Origin: Phycisphaeraceae bacterium
GTDB lineage: Bacteria; Planctomycetota; Phycisphaerae; Phycisphaerales; UBA1924
Assembly: GCA_019636795.1 (NCBI GenBank)
Contig: JAHBWW010000001.1
Coordinates: forward strand, 1 to 64,000
Direction: 5' to 3'
Length of the DNA: 64,000 nucleotides
The notes below the pieces were generated by a model. It searched no databases. It saw nothing but the letters and a program-made list of their open reading frames with translations, and was not told the DNA's origin. Position numbers and translations under genes: made by a program. This document shows positions 10,746 through 25,754 of this stretch, piece by piece (the first letter of the stretch is position 1; each line of letters opens with the position of its first letter).

Positions 10746-11354
10746 CTATTGAACCATGACACTGATCAAGGCTGCCTCAAAATTCGTAATATTGGATTGT
10801 GTCCACTCACAAAACGATCCCGCTTTGAGCGGGCACTCGTCAGTGTTATCACAATTCAACGCAAGGCATCCATGCGCGGCAAGCGGAATTGTCCGACACC
10901 GACAAACCGAAGCCACAAGCTGCGGACCGCTGCTCGAAGGCAACTTGAACTGCACATAAGTGTCATCAGCCTCAAGCTCCATCCACAACTCGCCGTAATC
11001 GTTCAGATAAAGCCACCCGATCAGCCCCGCATCCTCTTCCGGGCCGTACGTTCCCTTCCCGGAAAACGCACAGAATGACAAAACCTCCGGATCCTCAGAA
11101 TCCCACCACTGCACCACATCCGTCACGATCTCTTCTTCGATCTCGAGCCAGACGAACTCCCCGTCCCATGATATAACAACACTCAGATCACCGATATGAC
11201 CATCGTACAGAGTCTCCCGCGCGTTCATCACCGAAGTCAGGGTCACCTGAGGTTGCATGGCGGTACGCAGTTCTGCACGCCAATCCCCATAGGCCATCGG
11301 AAACAGCCCCGCAACAACCATCAAAATGATGACGAAAAGGTACGAACGGCTCAT
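10746..11354 (-). CDS. Secreted protein of unknown function, second gene of a lipoprotein pair
   Basis: A 202-residue protein with a clear signal peptide (LFVIILMVVAGLFPMAYG) and a strong AGGAGG at 11361-11366. Its ATG overlaps the stop of the upstream lipoprotein gene as ATGA, so the two are translationally coupled. The mature part is acidic and Trp/Glu-rich (EFVWLEIEEEIVTDVVQWW), with a Cys cluster at the C-terminus (CRCR, CLALNC, ECP, FCEW) suggesting disulphides. No known family recognised. Confidence 0.65.
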   Translation of the reverse strand: MSRSYLFVIILMVVAGLFPMAYGDWRAELRTAMQPQVTLTSVMNARETLYDGHIGDLSVVISWDGEFVWLEIEEEIVTDVVQWWDSEDPEVLSFCAFSGKGTYGPEEDAGLIGWLYLNDYGELWMELEADDTYVQFKLPSSSGPQLVASVCRCRTIPLAAHGCLALNCDNTDECPLKAGSFCEWTQSNITNFEAALISVMVQ

Positions 11355-15527: not shown

Positions 15528-15834
15528 CACATTGCTCCTTGTTCAAACTCAGACCGCCCGCCCATACCATCCACAAGCGATGACCAGAACCACCACACAC
15601 GCTAGCCAGCCGGATGCCGTGGCCGCGTGCCGCGGTCATGGCTCTGCATGGCCACGATCAGTGGCAAATGGCCCCAACCGCCACCCTTGATGCACGCCAC
15701 CCGTGCCACCGACCACGGCTCTGAGTGGCGGTGTGCCTTGGTTCCTAACCAAACCACCGTCCAGGCAGGCTCATGGCACCAACCGCAATGAGTGGTCGGC
15801 CGGGTGCCGTGGTCATGGCTCTGCATGGCCACGA
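15528..15834. other. Non-coding stretch holding the first repeat unit
   Basis: Apart from the ribosome site of the 2-TM protein and the tandem repeat starting at 15635, I see no gene. Open frames here run through the repeat on both strands and carry no recognisable domain. Confidence 0.5.
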
Positions 15835-15990
15835 TCAGGGGCAGATGGCCCCGACCGCAACCGTTGATGCATGCCTCCCGTGCCACCGACCACGGCTCTG
15901 AGTGGTCGGTGTGCCTTGGCTCTTTTCCAACCGAACCACCGTCCAGGCAGGCTCATGGCACCAACCGCAATGAGTGGTCGGCCACGTGCC
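15635..15990. repeat. Two-copy 177-bp tandem repeat
   Basis: Unit 1 starts at 15635 and unit 2 at 15812; both begin GTCATGGCTCTGCATGGCCA. They share blocks such as CGTGCCACCGACCACGGCTC and CCACCGTCCAGGCAGGCTCA. Unit 2 runs into the 3' end of the orphan RHS tip, so the RHS stop codon lies within repeat sequence. A 39-bp core from the unit boundary (15798-15836) recurs in inverse orientation at 33847-33885 with about four mismatches, so it is a dispersed genomic repeat. Confidence 0.75.
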
Positions 15991-16536
15991 CGCGAGGTTC
16001 GCGTCGGCCTGCGTCACCTCGCCCTCGCATGTAACATCCCCCGCCGGGATGCCGAACGGCGTGCCATACGGCTCATACCGCACCTGCTCGATCTGGCTCC
16101 CCGCGTGCGAGATGAGGGCGACGATGTCGCTGCGCCAGTTGTGGAGGTAGTAGATGCGCTCGTCGAGCGTGCCGTTGGCCGTCGTGTCGCGGTCGCGGAG
16201 CATCACCGCATCAATATAACTGCCCGAGCCGGTCGAAGCAAGGCCCGCGTTGTGAAATACAAACTGCTCCGTTGGGTCGCTGTTCGCATCTTCGTACCGC
16301 GCGACGATCCGCCAGCGGGCGTCGTAGGCGAAGTGGCTCACCACATCGGCACCGGTGACACCATCCACGCCATTCGTATCGAAGTGGGCGGTGATCCGCT
16401 GATACGCGCGCCTATGACCCCCACCGACGCCGCCAATTGCTTCGGCCATACGCCACGTCATCAGTGAAACCGCTCTGGCCCACGCGAGCCAAGCGGGGCG
16501 GCTGAAGTTTGTGGCCCTCGCCGAGCGTACCCGCAT
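15835..16536 (-). pseudogene. Orphan RHS tip fragment (copy A)
   Basis: Encodes an RHS-core segment (AYDARWRIVARYEDANSDP, YIDAVMLRDRDTTANGTL, QVRYEPYGTPFGIPAGD) but neither the N-terminal YD-repeat shell nor the conserved DPxGxxDGxNLY end. After PAGD it has half a dockerin-like loop and then runs into the 177-bp repeat. Upstream of about 16440 the homology stops. Bases 16040-16248 are about 97% identical to 18678-18886 in copy B. A dead, displaced tip is the simplest reading. Confidence 0.6.
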
Positions 16537-16862
16537 GCGCGGCCACCGGCAGGGGGCGCTGTTCTACTGGTTGCTCAGCAAGACAGCGTACATCACGCAA
16601 GCGGCTGAGGAAGAGGCATGCAGGAGGATCAGGGAGTATCTGTACGGATCGTCGGAGCGCATCGGACAGATCGGCGACGACGAGTCCTGGGGTGGGGCAG
16701 GGGCCAGCCAGCCGAACGGAGCGCACTGACGAGGAGTACTTCGTGCTGGCCTACGTCGAGATCCCGCAGCAGCGCCGGATCGATGATCCCTTCCAAGTCG
16801 CTCGGCACAGGGGCTGGACGCGGGACCGCTGGGGCTTGGCGCTGCGCTCCCACACCCGATGA
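16448..16862 (+). pseudogene. Remnant coding sequence(s), possibly frameshifted
   Basis: The + strand frame from about 16448 to 16729 reads like a helical protein end (ISETALAHASQAGRL, QGALFYWLLSKTAYI, EEEACRRIREYLYG). After its stop, another frame reads EEYFVLAYVEIPQQRR and continues to 16862. Both have codon bias like real genes here. No start codon or ribosome site fits. It is probably the 3' remains of a gene cut by the RHS rearrangement; family not recognised. Confidence 0.3.
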
Positions 16863-16943
16863 GAAAACATCCATGAATCTTGGGAAACGGTCTGATCGGC
16901 TAGGTTCAATGGATCCGGGATAGGTTCTTCATTGAATCGATAC

Positions 16944-17597
16944 TTAGTGTGGTCCGCATTCGGGACATACAGTGCCTATATCCCGCAAAGGATAGCCGCA
17001 CGCCTTGCACCGCCTTTCTTCCTGTCTCAATCTCCGTATTTGCATGGCAATCAAAATTTGCACATGGAGCGGCAGCGAGATTGCCGTTGCGACGACAATT
17101 ATATTTAGATAGAACTCATGCGACAGCGACAATACACTACGAAGCCTCGGACAACGAACTATATAATTATCAAAAGGCCCAATAACAAGAGACTGACCAT
17201 CGGAACGCCATAGTATCGGATCTGCAGGATCACTATTAAGAACGTACCCAACGTCCTCAGAGAGTGACCAAACAAAGGGCCACCCCGTACAATACTGAAT
17301 ATTTTGTATATCAAATCCACAGTGCATCAGACTATCACCCCAAAATTCGGAGTCAAAGTCAGCAACAATAATAATATAAACATGCTTTCCATAAAATGCA
17401 GCGAGCTCAAACTGCGCCCATTCGTGCTTGCCTGTATCTAAATAGTCATATGTCTGTACGCTTGTGGGACAGAGCAGCAGATAAACTAAAAACGCAGTTT
17501 GAATGAGCAAAGCCAATGCCAAGCAGGCTGCCATTTTCCTACCATAGGAGGTCGGGGCACGCCGCGATTCTCTGCACTTTCGTCGAGTGATTAGCAT
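16944..17597 (-). CDS. Two-TM protein with C-terminal zinc ribbon, candidate RHS-linked immunity protein
   Basis: A 217-residue protein 18 bases downstream of RHS tip B. One membrane helix near residues 22-44 (MAACLALALLIQTAFLVYLL) is followed by an extracytoplasmic domain rich in aromatic residues and aspartate. A second helix lies near 165-188 (FYLNIIVVATAISLPL), then a cytosolic C-x2-CGYPLRDIGTVCPECG zinc ribbon of the same type as the proteins at 9197 and 9971. The DNA is visibly AT-richer than its neighbours. Position after an RHS C-terminal domain is where immunity genes usually sit; that role is inference from context only. Confidence 0.65.
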   Translation of the reverse strand: MLITRRKCRESRRAPTSYGRKMAACLALALLIQTAFLVYLLLCPTSVQTYDYLDTGKHEWAQFELAAFYGKHVYIIIVADFDSEFWGDSLMHCGFDIQNIQYCTGWPFVWSLSEDVGYVLNSDPADPILWRSDGQSLVIGPFDNYIVRCPRLRSVLSLSHEFYLNIIVVATAISLPLHVQILIAMQIRRLRQEERRCKACGYPLRDIGTVCPECGPH

Positions 17598-17614
17598 GCC
17601 ACCAATCTGCGATA

Positions 17615-18892
17615 TTACCCTTCACTTGCTTCGTTCTTACACCGTTGCCCTGACCCCTTCATGCAATCCGTCTGAATACTGATGTTTCTGCGTGTCTCTT
17701 CTTCTCGTGATGGCGGAATTACAGGAGGGGTGTTGTTTTGACAGTAGACTTTCTCAAGGGATTCTGCCCAGCACCGATTGCGTTCTCGCAATAGGCAGCG
17801 GCCTTCACGGCATTCGTAGCCTTCATTGCCTTCTGGACAGGAAATGCGTCCAACGCACGCTTCGTACTTCCTCAGGGACAGAGCCTTTCGACACAACGAG
17901 ACTCGAACATTTTCATGCGTCACGTGCGGCTGCTTGTCCGGAAGCCCCGTATACCCTGGGGCACAATCCGTCTGAGAACCATAATTCCATTGATCTAACT
18001 CATACTCACGTTGACACGCGCGAAATGGATCGCCCTGCTCGCCGGGAAGCTCGCGGCCGCGGGTGCGACAAATGCAAACGACAGGCTTTCCTTTATAACA
18101 GTATCCCATTGCTCCTGCGCCACGATTGTCTTGACAGGCCTGTTCGCACGCGGCTATTAGCAAAACCATACTCGGTGTTGTATCATCCGGAATGTCCCCC
18201 CCAGGAGCATCAACAATAGGGATCGATGGGGGAGCAAGCCACGGTGCCATAGGAGTACTGTCTTGAGCAAAGGCACGGTGTGTTCCGTATGTATCGTAAC
18301 CTAAGATCGGCCTTCCCATGACATACTCATACAAACTCACCCCATCGACATACCCCAGCGGATCCCTTCGATTCCAACTCCCAATCTCCGACAGCAGCAC
18401 CCGATTCCTGACATCCCACTTCACCCCGCTGCCTTCGAGTTCAGCCAGGTTCTCATAGCCCGCGTAGCCCTTGCGGCTGCCGATGTGCTCAAGGCTCAGC
18501 ACGCCGCGGCCGGTCTCGTGATTGAGGACCTTGTTGCCGGCAATATATGTAATATCAGAGAGGTTCACCGAGCCGTTCATGTCCAGGTCGGCGCGGACGT
18601 CGTACGCCGAGCCGGAGTACCATGCTGCCGCCTGATCGACATCATCCTGTGTCACCTTGCCATCAGCATCAATATCTCCCGCCGGGATGCCGAACGGCGT
18701 GCCATACGGCTCATACCGCACCTGCTCGATCTGGCTGCCCGCGTGCGAAATCAGGGCCACGATGTCGCTGCGCCAGTTGTGGAGGTAATAGACGCGCTCG
18801 TCGAGCGTGCCGTTGGCCGTCGTGTCGCGGTCGCGGAGCATCACCGCATCAATATAACTGCCCGAGCCGGCCGAAGCAAGGCCCGCACACCT
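17615..18892 (-). pseudogene. RHS tip (copy B) with dockerin-like insert and Cys-rich C-terminal domain, 5'-truncated
   Basis: The frame is open from a stop at 18893-18895; first usable starts are GTG 18847 and ATG 18844. It covers the RHS-core end: QVRYEPYGTPFGIPAGD, then two EF-hand-like dockerin loops (DADGKVTQDDVD, DLDMNGSVNLSD), then the conserved border DPLGYVDGVSLYEYVMGRP. The variable C-terminal domain of about 230 residues has some 17 cysteines and no motif I can name. Homology to copy A stops abruptly at 18886, so the large YD-repeat shell is missing here. It may be a silent toxin-tip cassette rather than an expressed gene. Confidence 0.65.
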
Positions 18893-18981: not shown

Positions 18982-19752
18982 CTATCCCGCCCGCTTCGCC
19001 GCAGGCAGCACCACCGCCACCGTCGTCCCCGCGCCCGCCTCGCTCGCGATGCTCAGTCTCCCCCCCTCCGCCCGCACCAGCCGATCGCACAAACTCAGCC
19101 CCAGCCCGCTCCCCCGCCCGAGGCTGAACCCCGGCTCAAGTGCCCGCCTCACCGTAGCAGCGTCCATCCCGCACCCGGTGTCCGCAAGCCGAATCTCCAC
19201 GCCTTCATCAACACCCCGCCCCACTACGCGCAGGACCCCCCCCTCTGGCATAGCCCCGATCGCATTCATAGCCAGATTCAGTAGCACATGATCCAAAGCC
19301 GCCTGAGGCATAGCAACCAGAAGCCCCTTCTCAATCTCTGTCTCAAATCGGACCTGCGTCTCCCTTGCTTTTTGCCTCACAAGCGCCTGCACCCGCTCCC
19401 ACGCAAGCCAAGGCTCAGCACACTCCCGCCCCGTGCCCTGACTCGGCATGGCGAGTGACAGGACAATTCGTGCAAAGTCCGCAATGCCCATGGCACTGCT
19501 AGCCGCCATCTCCAGCGCCCGCCTGGTAAGCGCAGCATCCTCCGGCTCCCGCAGCGCCATCTGGGCACACGCCGCCACCGGGGTCATCCGATTGCACACC
19601 TCATGCGCGATTGATGCCGCAAGCAGCCCGACCGTGGCGAGCGAAGCCTGAGCTTCCACCTCGCGCTGGAGTTCCGTGACCGCCATCTGCAGGTGGTCGA
19701 GTTCGCGGAGCAGTTGCTCCGCATCCATCGGATTTGGGGGGTTACGGTCCAT
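18982..19752 (-). CDS. Soluble sensor histidine kinase
   Basis: A 256-residue protein with no membrane segment. An N-terminal coiled coil (residues 8-38) leads into a dimerisation/phospho-acceptor helix with ASIAHEVCNRM, His50 being the predicted site. The C-terminal HATPase_c domain has the N box NLAMNAIGAMP, G1 DTGCGM and G2 GRGSGLGLSLC. There is no sensor domain, so the input must come from a partner or from the N-terminal coil. No response regulator is adjacent (orphan kinase). The gene is strongly C-biased on the + strand, in contrast to genes beyond 20 kb. Confidence 0.88.
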   Translation of the reverse strand: MDRNPPNPMDAEQLLRELDHLQMAVTELQREVEAQASLATVGLLAASIAHEVCNRMTPVAACAQMALREPEDAALTRRALEMAASSAMGIADFARIVLSLAMPSQGTGRECAEPWLAWERVQALVRQKARETQVRFETEIEKGLLVAMPQAALDHVLLNLAMNAIGAMPEGGVLRVVGRGVDEGVEIRLADTGCGMDAATVRRALEPGFSLGRGSGLGLSLCDRLVRAEGGRLSIASEAGAGTTVAVVLPAAKRAG

Positions 19753-20307: not shown

Positions 20308-21267
20308 ATGTCGAACACGCCTGCTGGGAAGTCGAGGAAGTTGGGCAAGGGCCTGAGCGCGTTGATGCAGCCCAAGGTGCCTGCGGAGGTATCGGTGCCT
20401 GTTCCGTTGGAGGGACCTCGGGCAGAAGAGGCTGGGGATCAAGTGGGGCAGGGGGGGCAAGGGGTTTTGATGCTGCCTGTGAAGTCGCTGGTGCGGAGTC
20501 CGTACCAACCCAGACTCTGGTTTGACGAGGAGGAGATGAACAAGTTGGCGCAGTCGATCCGGGCGGCGGGGGTGATCCAGCCGATTCTGGTGCGGACTTC
20601 CCAACAGAACCCGAGTAAGTATGAGTTGATGGCGGGGGAGCGGCGTTGGCAGGCGGCGCAGATGATTGGGCTGGAGACAATCCCTGCGCTGGTACGGGAG
20701 TTATCGGACTCTGACGCGGCGCAACTGGCGCTGGTGGAGAATCTGCAGCGTGTGGATCTGGATCCGATGGAGCGTGCGCATGCGCTGCGTCGGCTGCATG
20801 TGGAGTTTGGGCTGACGCAGGTGGAGCTGGCGGAGCGGATCGGGCTTGAGCGCACGAGCGTGGTGAATCTGATTCGGGTGACGGAGCTTGAGGATTCGAT
20901 TCAAGGTTTCATCGGGCGCAGCGAGTTGTCGATCGGGCATGGGAAGGTGTTGTTGATGCTTGCGCCTGGTGAGCGGCGTGTTCGCATTGCGGCGCGGGCG
21001 GCGAAGAACAAGTGGAGTGTTCGCGAACTGGAGCGGCACCTTCAGGATGGGGCGGAAGGCATCGGGCCGTTTGGCGGGGGCAAGCCGAGCACGACGAACT
21101 CGCCGACGCTGTCGTCACTGGAACGACAACTCGGCGAGCACCTCGGGACGCGGGTGCAGATCAAGGCTTCGAAGAACGGAACGAAGGGGAAACTGGTGGT
21201 TGATTTCTACAGCCTGGATCATTTTGACGGGTTGATGGGGAAGATGGGGTTTGAGGGAGAAGGTTGA
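20308..21267 (+). CDS. parB: Chromosome partitioning protein ParB
   Basis: A 319-residue CTP-dependent DNA clamp. The N-terminus RKLGKGLSALM is the ParA-interacting tail. Residues about 55-150 form the ParB/Srx CTPase domain, with SPYQPR, GERRW and ENLQR. The HTH around residues 165-195 (LTQVELAERIGLERTSVVN) reads parS, and the C-terminal dimerisation region ends VDFYSLDHFDGLM. No parA is in the window. The last 117 bases including the stop are duplicated at 25638-25754, marking the edges of an island; this copy is the intact gene. Confidence 0.95.
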   Translation: MSNTPAGKSRKLGKGLSALMQPKVPAEVSVPVPLEGPRAEEAGDQVGQGGQGVLMLPVKSLVRSPYQPRLWFDEEEMNKLAQSIRAAGVIQPILVRTSQQNPSKYELMAGERRWQAAQMIGLETIPALVRELSDSDAAQLALVENLQRVDLDPMERAHALRRLHVEFGLTQVELAERIGLERTSVVNLIRVTELEDSIQGFIGRSELSIGHGKVLLMLAPGERRVRIAARAAKNKWSVRELERHLQDGAEGIGPFGGGKPSTTNSPTLSSLERQLGEHLGTRVQIKASKNGTKGKLVVDFYSLDHFDGLMGKMGFEGEG

Positions 21268-21268
21268 A
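21152..21268 (+). repeat. 117-bp direct repeat, left copy (3' end of intact parB)
   Basis: Identical at 116 of 117 positions to 25638-25754; the difference is C at 21193 versus T at 25679. The two copies bound a 4.4-kb island and keep parB intact, like attachment-site duplications left by elements that integrate into gene 3' ends. Confidence 0.88.
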
Positions 21269-21894: not shown

Positions 21895-21920
21895 GGTAGT
21901 GGTTCACTTTGAACATGCGG
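21895..21920 (+). repeat. Left terminal inverted repeat of the transposon
   Basis: 26 bp, beginning GGTAGTGGTTCACTTTGA and ending CATGCGG. It contains the stop codon of the transposase gene. The partner, in opposite orientation, is at 24795-24820 and differs at one base (A/G at position 19). Confidence 0.88.
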
Positions 21921-22776
21921 GCAAATACCCGGCCAAGCGGCTACCAAGTCTGGATTCTTCGCCTTCCAGCATCCGAACAAGATCAATCGCGGTCAATGGT
22001 CGATCGGCAAGCCCGTTTGCAACGGCTGGGGTTGTCTTGATTGTGTTGTGCTTGCGGGCGAAGTTGTACCACCAGAAATGCAGGTCCAGCGCGTGAATGT
22101 GGTTCTCGATTTTCTTGCTGAAGGCATTGGTAAGGCGTGTCATGCGTCGGGTCTGCATCCTGATCGTGAGGTTTTGGCGTTCGACGAACGAGGTTGAAAC
22201 ATGCTGGGGATCAGGCGTTCCACAGCGTCGAACAGTGGTAGTGCTGATGCAGACTGGCGGGCTATAACGGCGTTCGGCTTCAAGATCGCGCCCATATTCC
22301 TTGAACAGTTGGGCGAAGTCCACATTGCCCCCAAACGCCTCTTTCACTGCGTCCTTGTACAGTCCATGGCCGTCTGATGTCAGTTGAACACGGGAATCAA
22401 TCCGATCGGAGAGATCCCAGAGGAAGGCCCGGGCGGTGTCTGCATCCCGATTGCCGGTCAAGTGTGCAATGACGATCTTTGAGTCGGCGTCGATTGCTAC
22501 CCATGTCCAAGCCGATCCGTAGGCGTTTGCGCCACCAAGGACGGCTTTGTCCTTTGCTCCGACGAATCCCCAAGCCTCATCCACTTGGACGCGGGCTGGA
22601 TAGAGGTTGCGGACGTGTTCATCGTGGTAACTGGCGCAGAAGGTGCCCACATCGGCCAAGAGTCGAAGGACCGTGATTTTGGACGCGCCAGTCATTCGGC
22701 AAGTTGAGGCAACGGAGTTGCCTTCAACCAGACAAGCCAGAATCGACGCCCGTTGTTCTGTGCTCAGTTTACGCAT
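21904..22776 (-). CDS. IS1-family-like DDE transposase
   Basis: Start at ATG 22776 with GGAG six bases upstream (a TTG at 22800 is less likely); 290 residues. An N-terminal HTH (residues 5-45, CLVEGNSVASTCRMTGASKI) precedes the catalytic core. The acidic triad fits D66 in VQVDEAWGF, D135 in LTSDGHGLY and E199 in STSFVERQN. The C-terminal block HFWWYNFARKHNTIK is typical of IS1-like transposases found as single uninterrupted genes. It should cut and join the inverted repeats flanking it. Its stop lies inside the left repeat, and its promoter overlaps that of the divergent P63C gene. Confidence 0.9.
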   Translation of the reverse strand: MRKLSTEQRASILACLVEGNSVASTCRMTGASKITVLRLLADVGTFCASYHDEHVRNLYPARVQVDEAWGFVGAKDKAVLGGANAYGSAWTWVAIDADSKIVIAHLTGNRDADTARAFLWDLSDRIDSRVQLTSDGHGLYKDAVKEAFGGNVDFAQLFKEYGRDLEAERRYSPPVCISTTTVRRCGTPDPQHVSTSFVERQNLTIRMQTRRMTRLTNAFSKKIENHIHALDLHFWWYNFARKHNTIKTTPAVANGLADRPLTAIDLVRMLEGEESRLGSRLAGYLPACSK

Positions 22777-22790
22777 GCTCTGCTCCGTGC

Positions 22791-22828
22791 TTGACGACAA
22801 GCATACAGCATGTTATACTTGCTGTCAA
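22791..22828. promoter_or_regulatory. Overlapping divergent sigma-70 promoters with dyad symmetry
   Basis: Rightward: TTGACG at 22791-22796, 17-bp spacer, TATACT at 22814-22819, 29 bases before ATG 22849. Leftward: TTGACA (22828-22823), 17-bp spacer, TATGCT (22805-22800), 23 bases before the transposase ATG. The two promoters lie on top of each other, and the region is a dyad (CTTGAC...CAAG...CTTG...GTCAAG), a natural operator layout for shared repression. Confidence 0.75.
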
Positions 22829-22848
22829 GCATATATGGAGCAACAAAT

Positions 22849-23877
22849 ATGACAACTGATCCGAGCGAGATGGGGAAAAAGGGCGGCAAGGCGCGAGCCG
22901 AGAAGTTATCCAAGGAAGAGAAGAGTCGAATCGCCAGCGTCGCCGCCCGTGCGCGATGGGGAAAGGATGCGCCGTCTGGTGCCGAGGATGATGTCCCCGA
23001 AGTGCTTTGTGGTTCGCCGGATCGCCCCATGCGGCTCGGCGAGGTTGAAGTGGCGTGCTATGTCCTCGACGACGAACGCCGAGTGATCATCCAGCGGGGA
23101 ATGATGACCGCCCTCGACATGGCCCAAGGGACTGCTGGTCGCGGGGACGGTGATCGTCTGTCTCGTTTTTTAGCAACAAAGGCACTCAACAGCCTTGTTT
23201 CCAAGGAGTTGCGCGATGTGATCACAAGCCCCATCCGGTTCAAAACGGGGTCGTCGCTTGCGTATGGGTATGAGGCCACCGTGCTGGCGGATATCTGCGA
23301 TGTTGTGCTCCAGGCCCGCAAAGACGGCACACTCCACTACCAGCAAGAACACATTGCCGATCAGTGTGAGATGCTGCTCCGGGCGTTCGCCAAAGTGGGC
23401 ATCGTCGCCTTGGTTGACGAGGCCACCGGCTATCAGTATGTGCGCCAGCGAGACGCACTGGAGCGACTCCTGGAGGAGTTTTTGTCGGAGGAACTTCGCC
23501 GATGGGTCAAGACCTTCCCCGGTGCGTACTTCCGCGAACTTTGTCGGCTTCGTGGGGTGCCATTCCGGCCGGACATGCGCCTTCCGCAGTACTTTGGACA
23601 TCTAACGAACGACATTGTCTACAAGAGACTCGCCCCGGGCGTTCTACAGGCCCTTCAGGAGCGGAGCCCGAAGAACGACCAAGGCAATCGTCCCAACAAA
23701 CTGCATCAGTGGTTGAGCGAAAACATGGGCCACCCGAAACTCATTCAGCACCTTGGCGCGGTAATCGCACTCATGCGAGTATCCGAGGACTGGGCCTCAT
23801 TCAAGAAGTTGCTCGACCAAGCCGCCGCGATTCCTGACGCCCATCAAGGCGGACTCTTCAATCAAGACGATGATTGA
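22849..23877 (+). CDS. P63C-domain protein (transposon passenger)
   Basis: Start at ATG 22849 with GGAG eight bases upstream; 342 residues. The N-terminus has a GKKGGKARAEKLS stretch like a small basic DNA-binding motif. Residues about 210-320 match the P63C domain of phage proteins: FPGAYFRELCRLRGVPF, LTNDIVYKRLAPGVL, NKLHQWLSENMGHPKL. The middle (EHIADQCEMLLRAFAKVGI) is helical. The role of P63C proteins is not known; they occur in phages and mobile elements. Divergent from the transposase and sharing its promoter region, so it may regulate or accompany transposition. Confidence 0.82.
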   Translation: MTTDPSEMGKKGGKARAEKLSKEEKSRIASVAARARWGKDAPSGAEDDVPEVLCGSPDRPMRLGEVEVACYVLDDERRVIIQRGMMTALDMAQGTAGRGDGDRLSRFLATKALNSLVSKELRDVITSPIRFKTGSSLAYGYEATVLADICDVVLQARKDGTLHYQQEHIADQCEMLLRAFAKVGIVALVDEATGYQYVRQRDALERLLEEFLSEELRRWVKTFPGAYFRELCRLRGVPFRPDMRLPQYFGHLTNDIVYKRLAPGVLQALQERSPKNDQGNRPNKLHQWLSENMGHPKLIQHLGAVIALMRVSEDWASFKKLLDQAAAIPDAHQGGLFNQDDD

Positions 23878-25637: not shown

Positions 25638-25754
25638 GGGTGCAGATCAAGGCTTCGAAGAACGGAACGAAGGGGAAATTGGTGGTTGATTTCTACAGCC
25701 TGGATCATTTTGACGGGTTGATGGGGAAGATGGGGTTTGAGGGAGAAGGTTGAA
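25638..25754 (+). repeat. 117-bp direct repeat, right copy (detached parB tail)
   Basis: The last 38 codons and stop of parB without the rest of the gene. One mismatch to the left copy at 21152-21268. Its downstream flank (from 25755) is presumably the original sequence after parB before the island came in. Confidence 0.88.

Follow-up and report, generated by a model that had tools for sequence, protein, structure and literature searches.

Copy B, a minus-strand piece of Rhs-related DNA in a Phycisphaeraceae bacterium, is best explained as an orphan Rhs tip module whose core DNA would serve as a homology arm for tip swapping with the full-length Rhs gene R1, and the neighboring copy A as a decayed fragment of the same core; the probability of this combined reading is put at roughly 0.78. 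It draws on the homology of both copies to R1, the abrupt end of that homology at the core/tip boundary, the single occurrence of the R1 shell, mosaic patterns among the copies and the presence of the same boundary in related genomes.

Two copies of an Rhs core end and the full-length gene R1

The window analyzed here is the whole 64,000-nucleotide stretch at the start of contig JAHBWW010000001.1 of GenBank assembly GCA_019636795.1. Copies A and B both lie on its minus strand, and each encodes sequence from the terminal region of an Rhs core. Direct comparison of 16040-16248 with 18678-18886 gives 7 differing positions in 209, in agreement with an earlier note on this DNA that had described a shared block of 209 bp with about seven mismatches; when extended by the repeat finder the pair covers 241 nt at 93% identity and is the longest repeat family listed in the window. 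The absence of a large Rhs shell from both copies, also claimed at that time, is confirmed. The further claim that both copies are cut at a common 5′ point does not hold, since copy A reaches 153 bp further 5′ than B: position 18886 is the start of homology for B only, and the core of A goes on to 16401. The 209-bp block is simply the overlap of the two copies, bounded on its 5′ side by the start of B and on its 3′ side by a point within a dockerin-like stretch where A diverges.

A search of the organism's own genome (3.49 Mb, 8 contigs) with window positions 16008-16460 returned five places: besides A and B themselves there were three matches, one of them weak and the other two, both strong, on contig C2. 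The full-length Rhs gene that the earlier note had proposed to look for was found as R1 (C2:317566-324087), encoding a protein of 2,173 aa and holding the same 209 bp with four differences to B and five to A. The match of the query to this full-length gene has an E value of 5.8e-177, which excludes a chance match. Over their longer alignments both copies match R1 at about 95% identity, B over 570 bp (18317-18886 against C2:323050-323619) and A over 394 bp (16008-16401 against C2:322897-323290), and because each copy is closer to R1 than to the other, a local duplication by itself does not explain the pair. A search of the genome places the first 983 aa of R1 at a single locus, and R1 is therefore the only shell of its type found.

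B lies on contig C1 and its only full-length parent found lies on contig C2; if these contigs belong to one replicon, the coordinates would place B at least about 330 kb from R1, since B lies 16-19 kb from an end of C1 and R1 lies 317 kb from the closer end of C2. The arrangement that the earlier note called typical is thus missing for B, whose parent is on another contig, but the usual layout is present beside R1, where the Rhs orphan o1 (L006:12460-14130, contig C2) lies directly downstream. Also downstream of the R1 array, L006:16010-18318 encodes short proteins and a 319-aa frame (17359-18318), products that may be TIR-like and caspase-like.

With TIGR03696 (Rhs-associated core; cut-off 32.5 bits), the protein scores are 31.4 bits for R1 and 27.1 bits for B, and in a scan of the genome 13 of the 14 matches exceed the cut-off, including R1 at 34.9 bits, with B at 29.4 bits the sole match below it. 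In R1, RHS_repeat is the one family that Pfam identifies. A model of the last 1,190 residues of R1 (mean pLDDT 62.8) matches Rhs, Tc and teneurin structures in Foldseek (best match 7q97, E 5e-29); with no listed TM-score above 0.34, the model supports the fold class and not the domain arrangement.

Copies A and B are not equivalent: B is a displaced Rhs tip and A is a tipless core fragment. The frame of A leaves Rhs sequence within the dockerin-like stretch and then enters a dispersed repeat, two adjoining copies of which (15621-15992) lie past its 3′ end and stand in place of the remaining core. Copy A is best read as a decayed core fragment, perhaps the remnant of a second module, whose downstream part was lost where the dispersed repeat now sits. 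The proposal of the earlier note that both copies are silent tips recombining into a full-length gene accordingly fits B, with its truncated core, new C-terminus and missing shell, but not A.

Counting the copies within the window, the dispersed repeat is matched 54 times in the genome, and several copies lie near Rhs arrays (C2:165-178 kb and C4:217-224 kb). Elsewhere in the window, the 117-bp end of parB (20308-21267) is present twice at 99% identity (21152-21268 and 25638-25754), the two copies flanking about 4.4 kb that contain an IS1-like transposase gene (21904-22800) and a P63C-domain gene (22810-23877); this 4.4-kb stretch looks like an insertion carrying, or having duplicated, the parB end.

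Copy B as a probable tip module

The frame of copy B is intact over 425 codons, joining the core end to a cysteine-rich C-terminus (17615-18316, minus strand; 7.4% Cys) that is a candidate toxin and whose DNA is unrelated to that of the R1 tip. The core-end motif reads DTYG in B and DSDG in R1, and homology between the two stops 33 nt before this motif ends; over the next 250 bp they are 0.52 identical, against a mean of 0.53 for shuffled sequence. Starting 17 nt after the stop codon of B, a gene on the same strand (16944-17597) encodes a 217-aa protein with two apparent membrane segments, judged by eye, and a C-terminal zinc-ribbon-like motif that scores below the Pfam cut-off. This candidate immunity partner would probably protect against tip B. 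Searches of Pfam, NCBIfam and PADLOC returned no toxin-family match over cut-off for the tip and no immunity-family match for the partner, which counts against the toxin and immunity readings, respectively. No relatives of tip B were found in 40 related genomes, in 396 other genomes of the class or in a further contig search. Also counting against the orphan module reading, none of these searches (sets of 41 and 397 genomes, own included) showed tip B attached to a full-length gene. The structure model of copy B is poor, with a mean pLDDT of 36.

The idea of a zinc-ribbon membrane protein as the general partner of Rhs tips was rejected, the motif following only 2 of 54 tips, those of B and o1, where about 0.36 is expected from the motif density in the same loci; such a protein stays a candidate partner for these two tips.

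The proposed module would comprise three elements: the terminal stretch of an Rhs core, a new C-terminal tip and the closely following membrane-protein-like gene. Its core DNA would act as a homology arm for recombination or gene conversion with the single full-length R1, and such a swap would place tip B onto an exported shell. On its own B, having neither a shell nor an export signal, is probably silent, in the sense that it yields no functional secreted protein. A crude hydropathy scan calls a signal-peptide-like start in R1 and none in B; among long genes the same scan calls such starts in 9 of 11, and among orphans in 2 of 44, both of these at locus L007. The two long genes missed are one that extends past the border of the sequence retrieved and a frame of 1,507 aa close to where a contig begins. 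A separate suggestion, that the genome is without a type VI secretion system, was rejected following strong matches to PF05591 and PF05936 at C3:245-270 kb.

Both copies look mosaic, which suggests exchange among copies. At sites informative for B, those with any difference among B, R1 and o1, it sides with o1 against R1 at 11 of 12 sites within L006 11476-11539 and is R1-like on both sides of this segment. Copy A is R1-like at L006 10900-10963 (20 of 21 sites) and o1-like at 10966-11012 (5 of 5) and 11173-11200 (4 of 4). Runs tests for clustering of these labels give p of about 0.0002 for B and about 0.0004 for A, values that serve as illustrations because the sites were picked post hoc and the dockerin block was excluded, the tests having been done on hand-copied labels after the pattern was seen. 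This mosaicism, rather than an observed event, is what suggests recombination into the full-length gene R1.

The intact frame, the clean core/tip boundary and the partner gene 17 nt on all argue against the leading alternative, in which A and B are plain debris, Rhs fragments that duplication and mobile elements have spread and that serve as no reserve. The differences of both copies from R1 are likewise mostly synonymous (17 synonymous and 7 nonsynonymous in 183 codons for B, 10 and 3 in 119 codons for A), however this may reflect constraint before detachment. In favor of debris, A stops short of any tip and passes into a dispersed repeat, and B, which has no shell, lies away from its parent beside a histidine-kinase-like gene. 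That gene is matched in 5 of 40 relatives, in each case distantly (35-39%). The unlinked position differs from that of described orphans and counts against reading B as a displaced tip, and orphans at loci L007 and L031 are also without a full-length gene in the 12 and 20 kb around them. On balance, plain debris is considered an unlikely explanation for the pair.

The second alternative is drawn from locus L007 (C2:170-176 kb), where two of three orphans (L007:1683-4052 and L007:4707-6284) consist of truncated cores and tips fused to their own signal-peptide-like starts and are possibly secreted small Rhs proteins; the 12 kb examined there hold no full-length Rhs gene. That B is likewise an independently expressed small Rhs protein is very improbable: in-frame GTG and ATG codons at 18844 and 18841 could allow translation of a 409-aa protein and a same-strand gene (18982-19752) precedes B, but these codons lie inside the conserved core with no obvious ribosome site by eye, the start region has no signal-peptide-like stretch, and no sigma-70-like site was called on the B strand between 15500 and 19900 by a sigma-70-only scan that performs at chance level.

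The core/tip boundary and the dockerin-like insert in related genomes

The orphan module reading of B places weight on a sharp boundary between core and tip, and this boundary recurs in a chosen set of relatives from a family in which 73 of 100 sampled genomes, own included, contain Rhs cores. The own genome contributed nine stretches to the comparison (the window plus eight loci retrieved from it), within which all 14 of its Rhs-core matches lie. A further 20 regions came from the genomes of 18 relatives; they were picked for several or long cores and are not a random sample. After one duplicate was dropped, a motif scan identified 57 distinct core copies in 17 genomes, with cores in 16 of the 18 relatives' genomes; three copies (B, o1 and one in L051) have no recognised core-end motif, and the boundary was fixed for them. 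Where two cores of one genome reach at least 75% DNA identity (54 pairs, 16 genomes), mean identity is 0.90 in the core and 0.57 over the next 250 bp, where shuffled sequence gives 0.53 with a maximum of 0.60. Identity past the core is below 0.65 in 51 of these pairs, the exceptions being a duplicated own-genome pair (1.0) and two pairs in genome G052 (0.89 and 0.66).

Tip segments of long genes have relatives on an orphan of a different genome: the tip segment of a 427-aa orphan at L052 is 51% identical over 67 aa to that of a long gene at L045 (2,519 aa) and 52% identical over 80 aa to that of a long gene at L047 (2,372 aa). In the own genome, locus L031 (C4:361-367 kb) contains four Rhs orphans in 6 kb, with no full-length gene within the 20 kb examined, and two of these orphans share 963 bp at 98% identity that include the start of the tip, after which they differ. 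Contig C4 ends within a long Rhs frame and contig C3 starts with an Rhs core (L033 and L035); these two contigs may be joined inside one Rhs gene.

The core of B also contains a dockerin-like EF-hand pair identified by motif (18497-18675, minus strand, ends approximate), with loops DIDADGKVTQDD and DLDMNGSVNLSD. This insert is located between the YxPYG and GYxGY motifs of the core and has one or two EF-hand loops. Loops were recognized by motif in 42 of the 57 core copies, the own genome contributing 14 of 15 (its one other core is interrupted where a contig ends) and the relatives 28 of 42 (13 of 16 genomes). PF00404 (Dockerin_1) scores over cut-off in 4 of 10 orphan proteins scanned from the own genome, and no Pfam dockerin is called in A, B, R1 or o1, although B has both loops by motif. 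An R1-led profile, A3, was built from 14 aligned proteins; it matches solved dockerins at positions 880-943 (best match 2y3n, E 1.2e-7) and solved Rhs and teneurin-like cores from position 947 on. At the level of sequence, the features of a type I dockerin are found for the core family, not for B taken alone.

No match to cohesin (PF00963) was found at E 0.001 in the own genome, and a cellulosome-like role is therefore unsupported. The insert as a second exchange cassette was rejected as a general feature, its identity falling at least 0.1 below that of both flanks in only 2 of 15 pairs, one of which is B against o1. A limited literature search found nothing that ties dockerins to Rhs proteins, polymorphic toxins or planctomycete toxins, and the embedded dockerin-like stretch represents a new, testable element beside the toxin-holding part of Rhs proteins. 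A broader scheme can be imagined in which the lineage has a chromosome-wide archive of silent tips, some of them unlinked, that rewrites a few exported shells by gene conversion in the manner of antigenic-variation cassettes, and in which the EF-hand pair within the core plug acts as a calcium-dependent lock or surface anchor for tip release; in this extended form the idea is unlikely.

Comparison with known orphan tips and toxin cassettes

The closest described counterpart of B is found in Salmonella LT2, where main and orphan rhs genes that recombined share 522 bp at 95% identity, compared to 570 bp at 95% for B and R1 (Koskiniemi 2014, PMC3967940, for LT2). Like B, the LT2 orphan consists of a truncated core, a new tip and a small downstream gene, with no export signals. 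It differs in that it lies downstream of its main gene, as orphan rhs modules are described in that text, is toxic, and has a fusion evidenced by experiment, whereas B is unlinked, carries a dockerin-like insert in its core and ends in a candidate toxin.

The rhs/cdi orphan arrays (Poole 2011, PMC3150448) are likewise built of modules comprising a core end, a tip and a partner gene, and their tips are common to orphans and to full-length genes of other strains. Homology in those rhs genes reaches the region coding for DPxGL, while that between B and R1 ends 33 nt before the end of a degenerate DxxG motif; for o1 and R1, homology ends roughly 120 nt before the end of the core-end DxxG motif. 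A standalone tip with an adjacent candidate immunity gene also resembles the polymorphic toxin cassettes, whose carriers include planctomycetes (Zhang 2012, PMC3482391); the consulted part of that survey does not mention dockerins, in contrast to the dockerin-like insert present here.

Displaced Rhs tips are therefore already known, and it is the unlinked position and the embedded dockerin-like stretch that set B apart. Copy B shows the main orphan-tip features tested except adjacency to its parent, and adjacency is, in our judgement, usual rather than obligatory. The orphan-tip recombination model, known from enterobacteria, is extended here to a lineage with the same sharp core/tip boundary, and if B can convert R1 from an unlinked site, Rhs tip exchange would need no tandem arrays.
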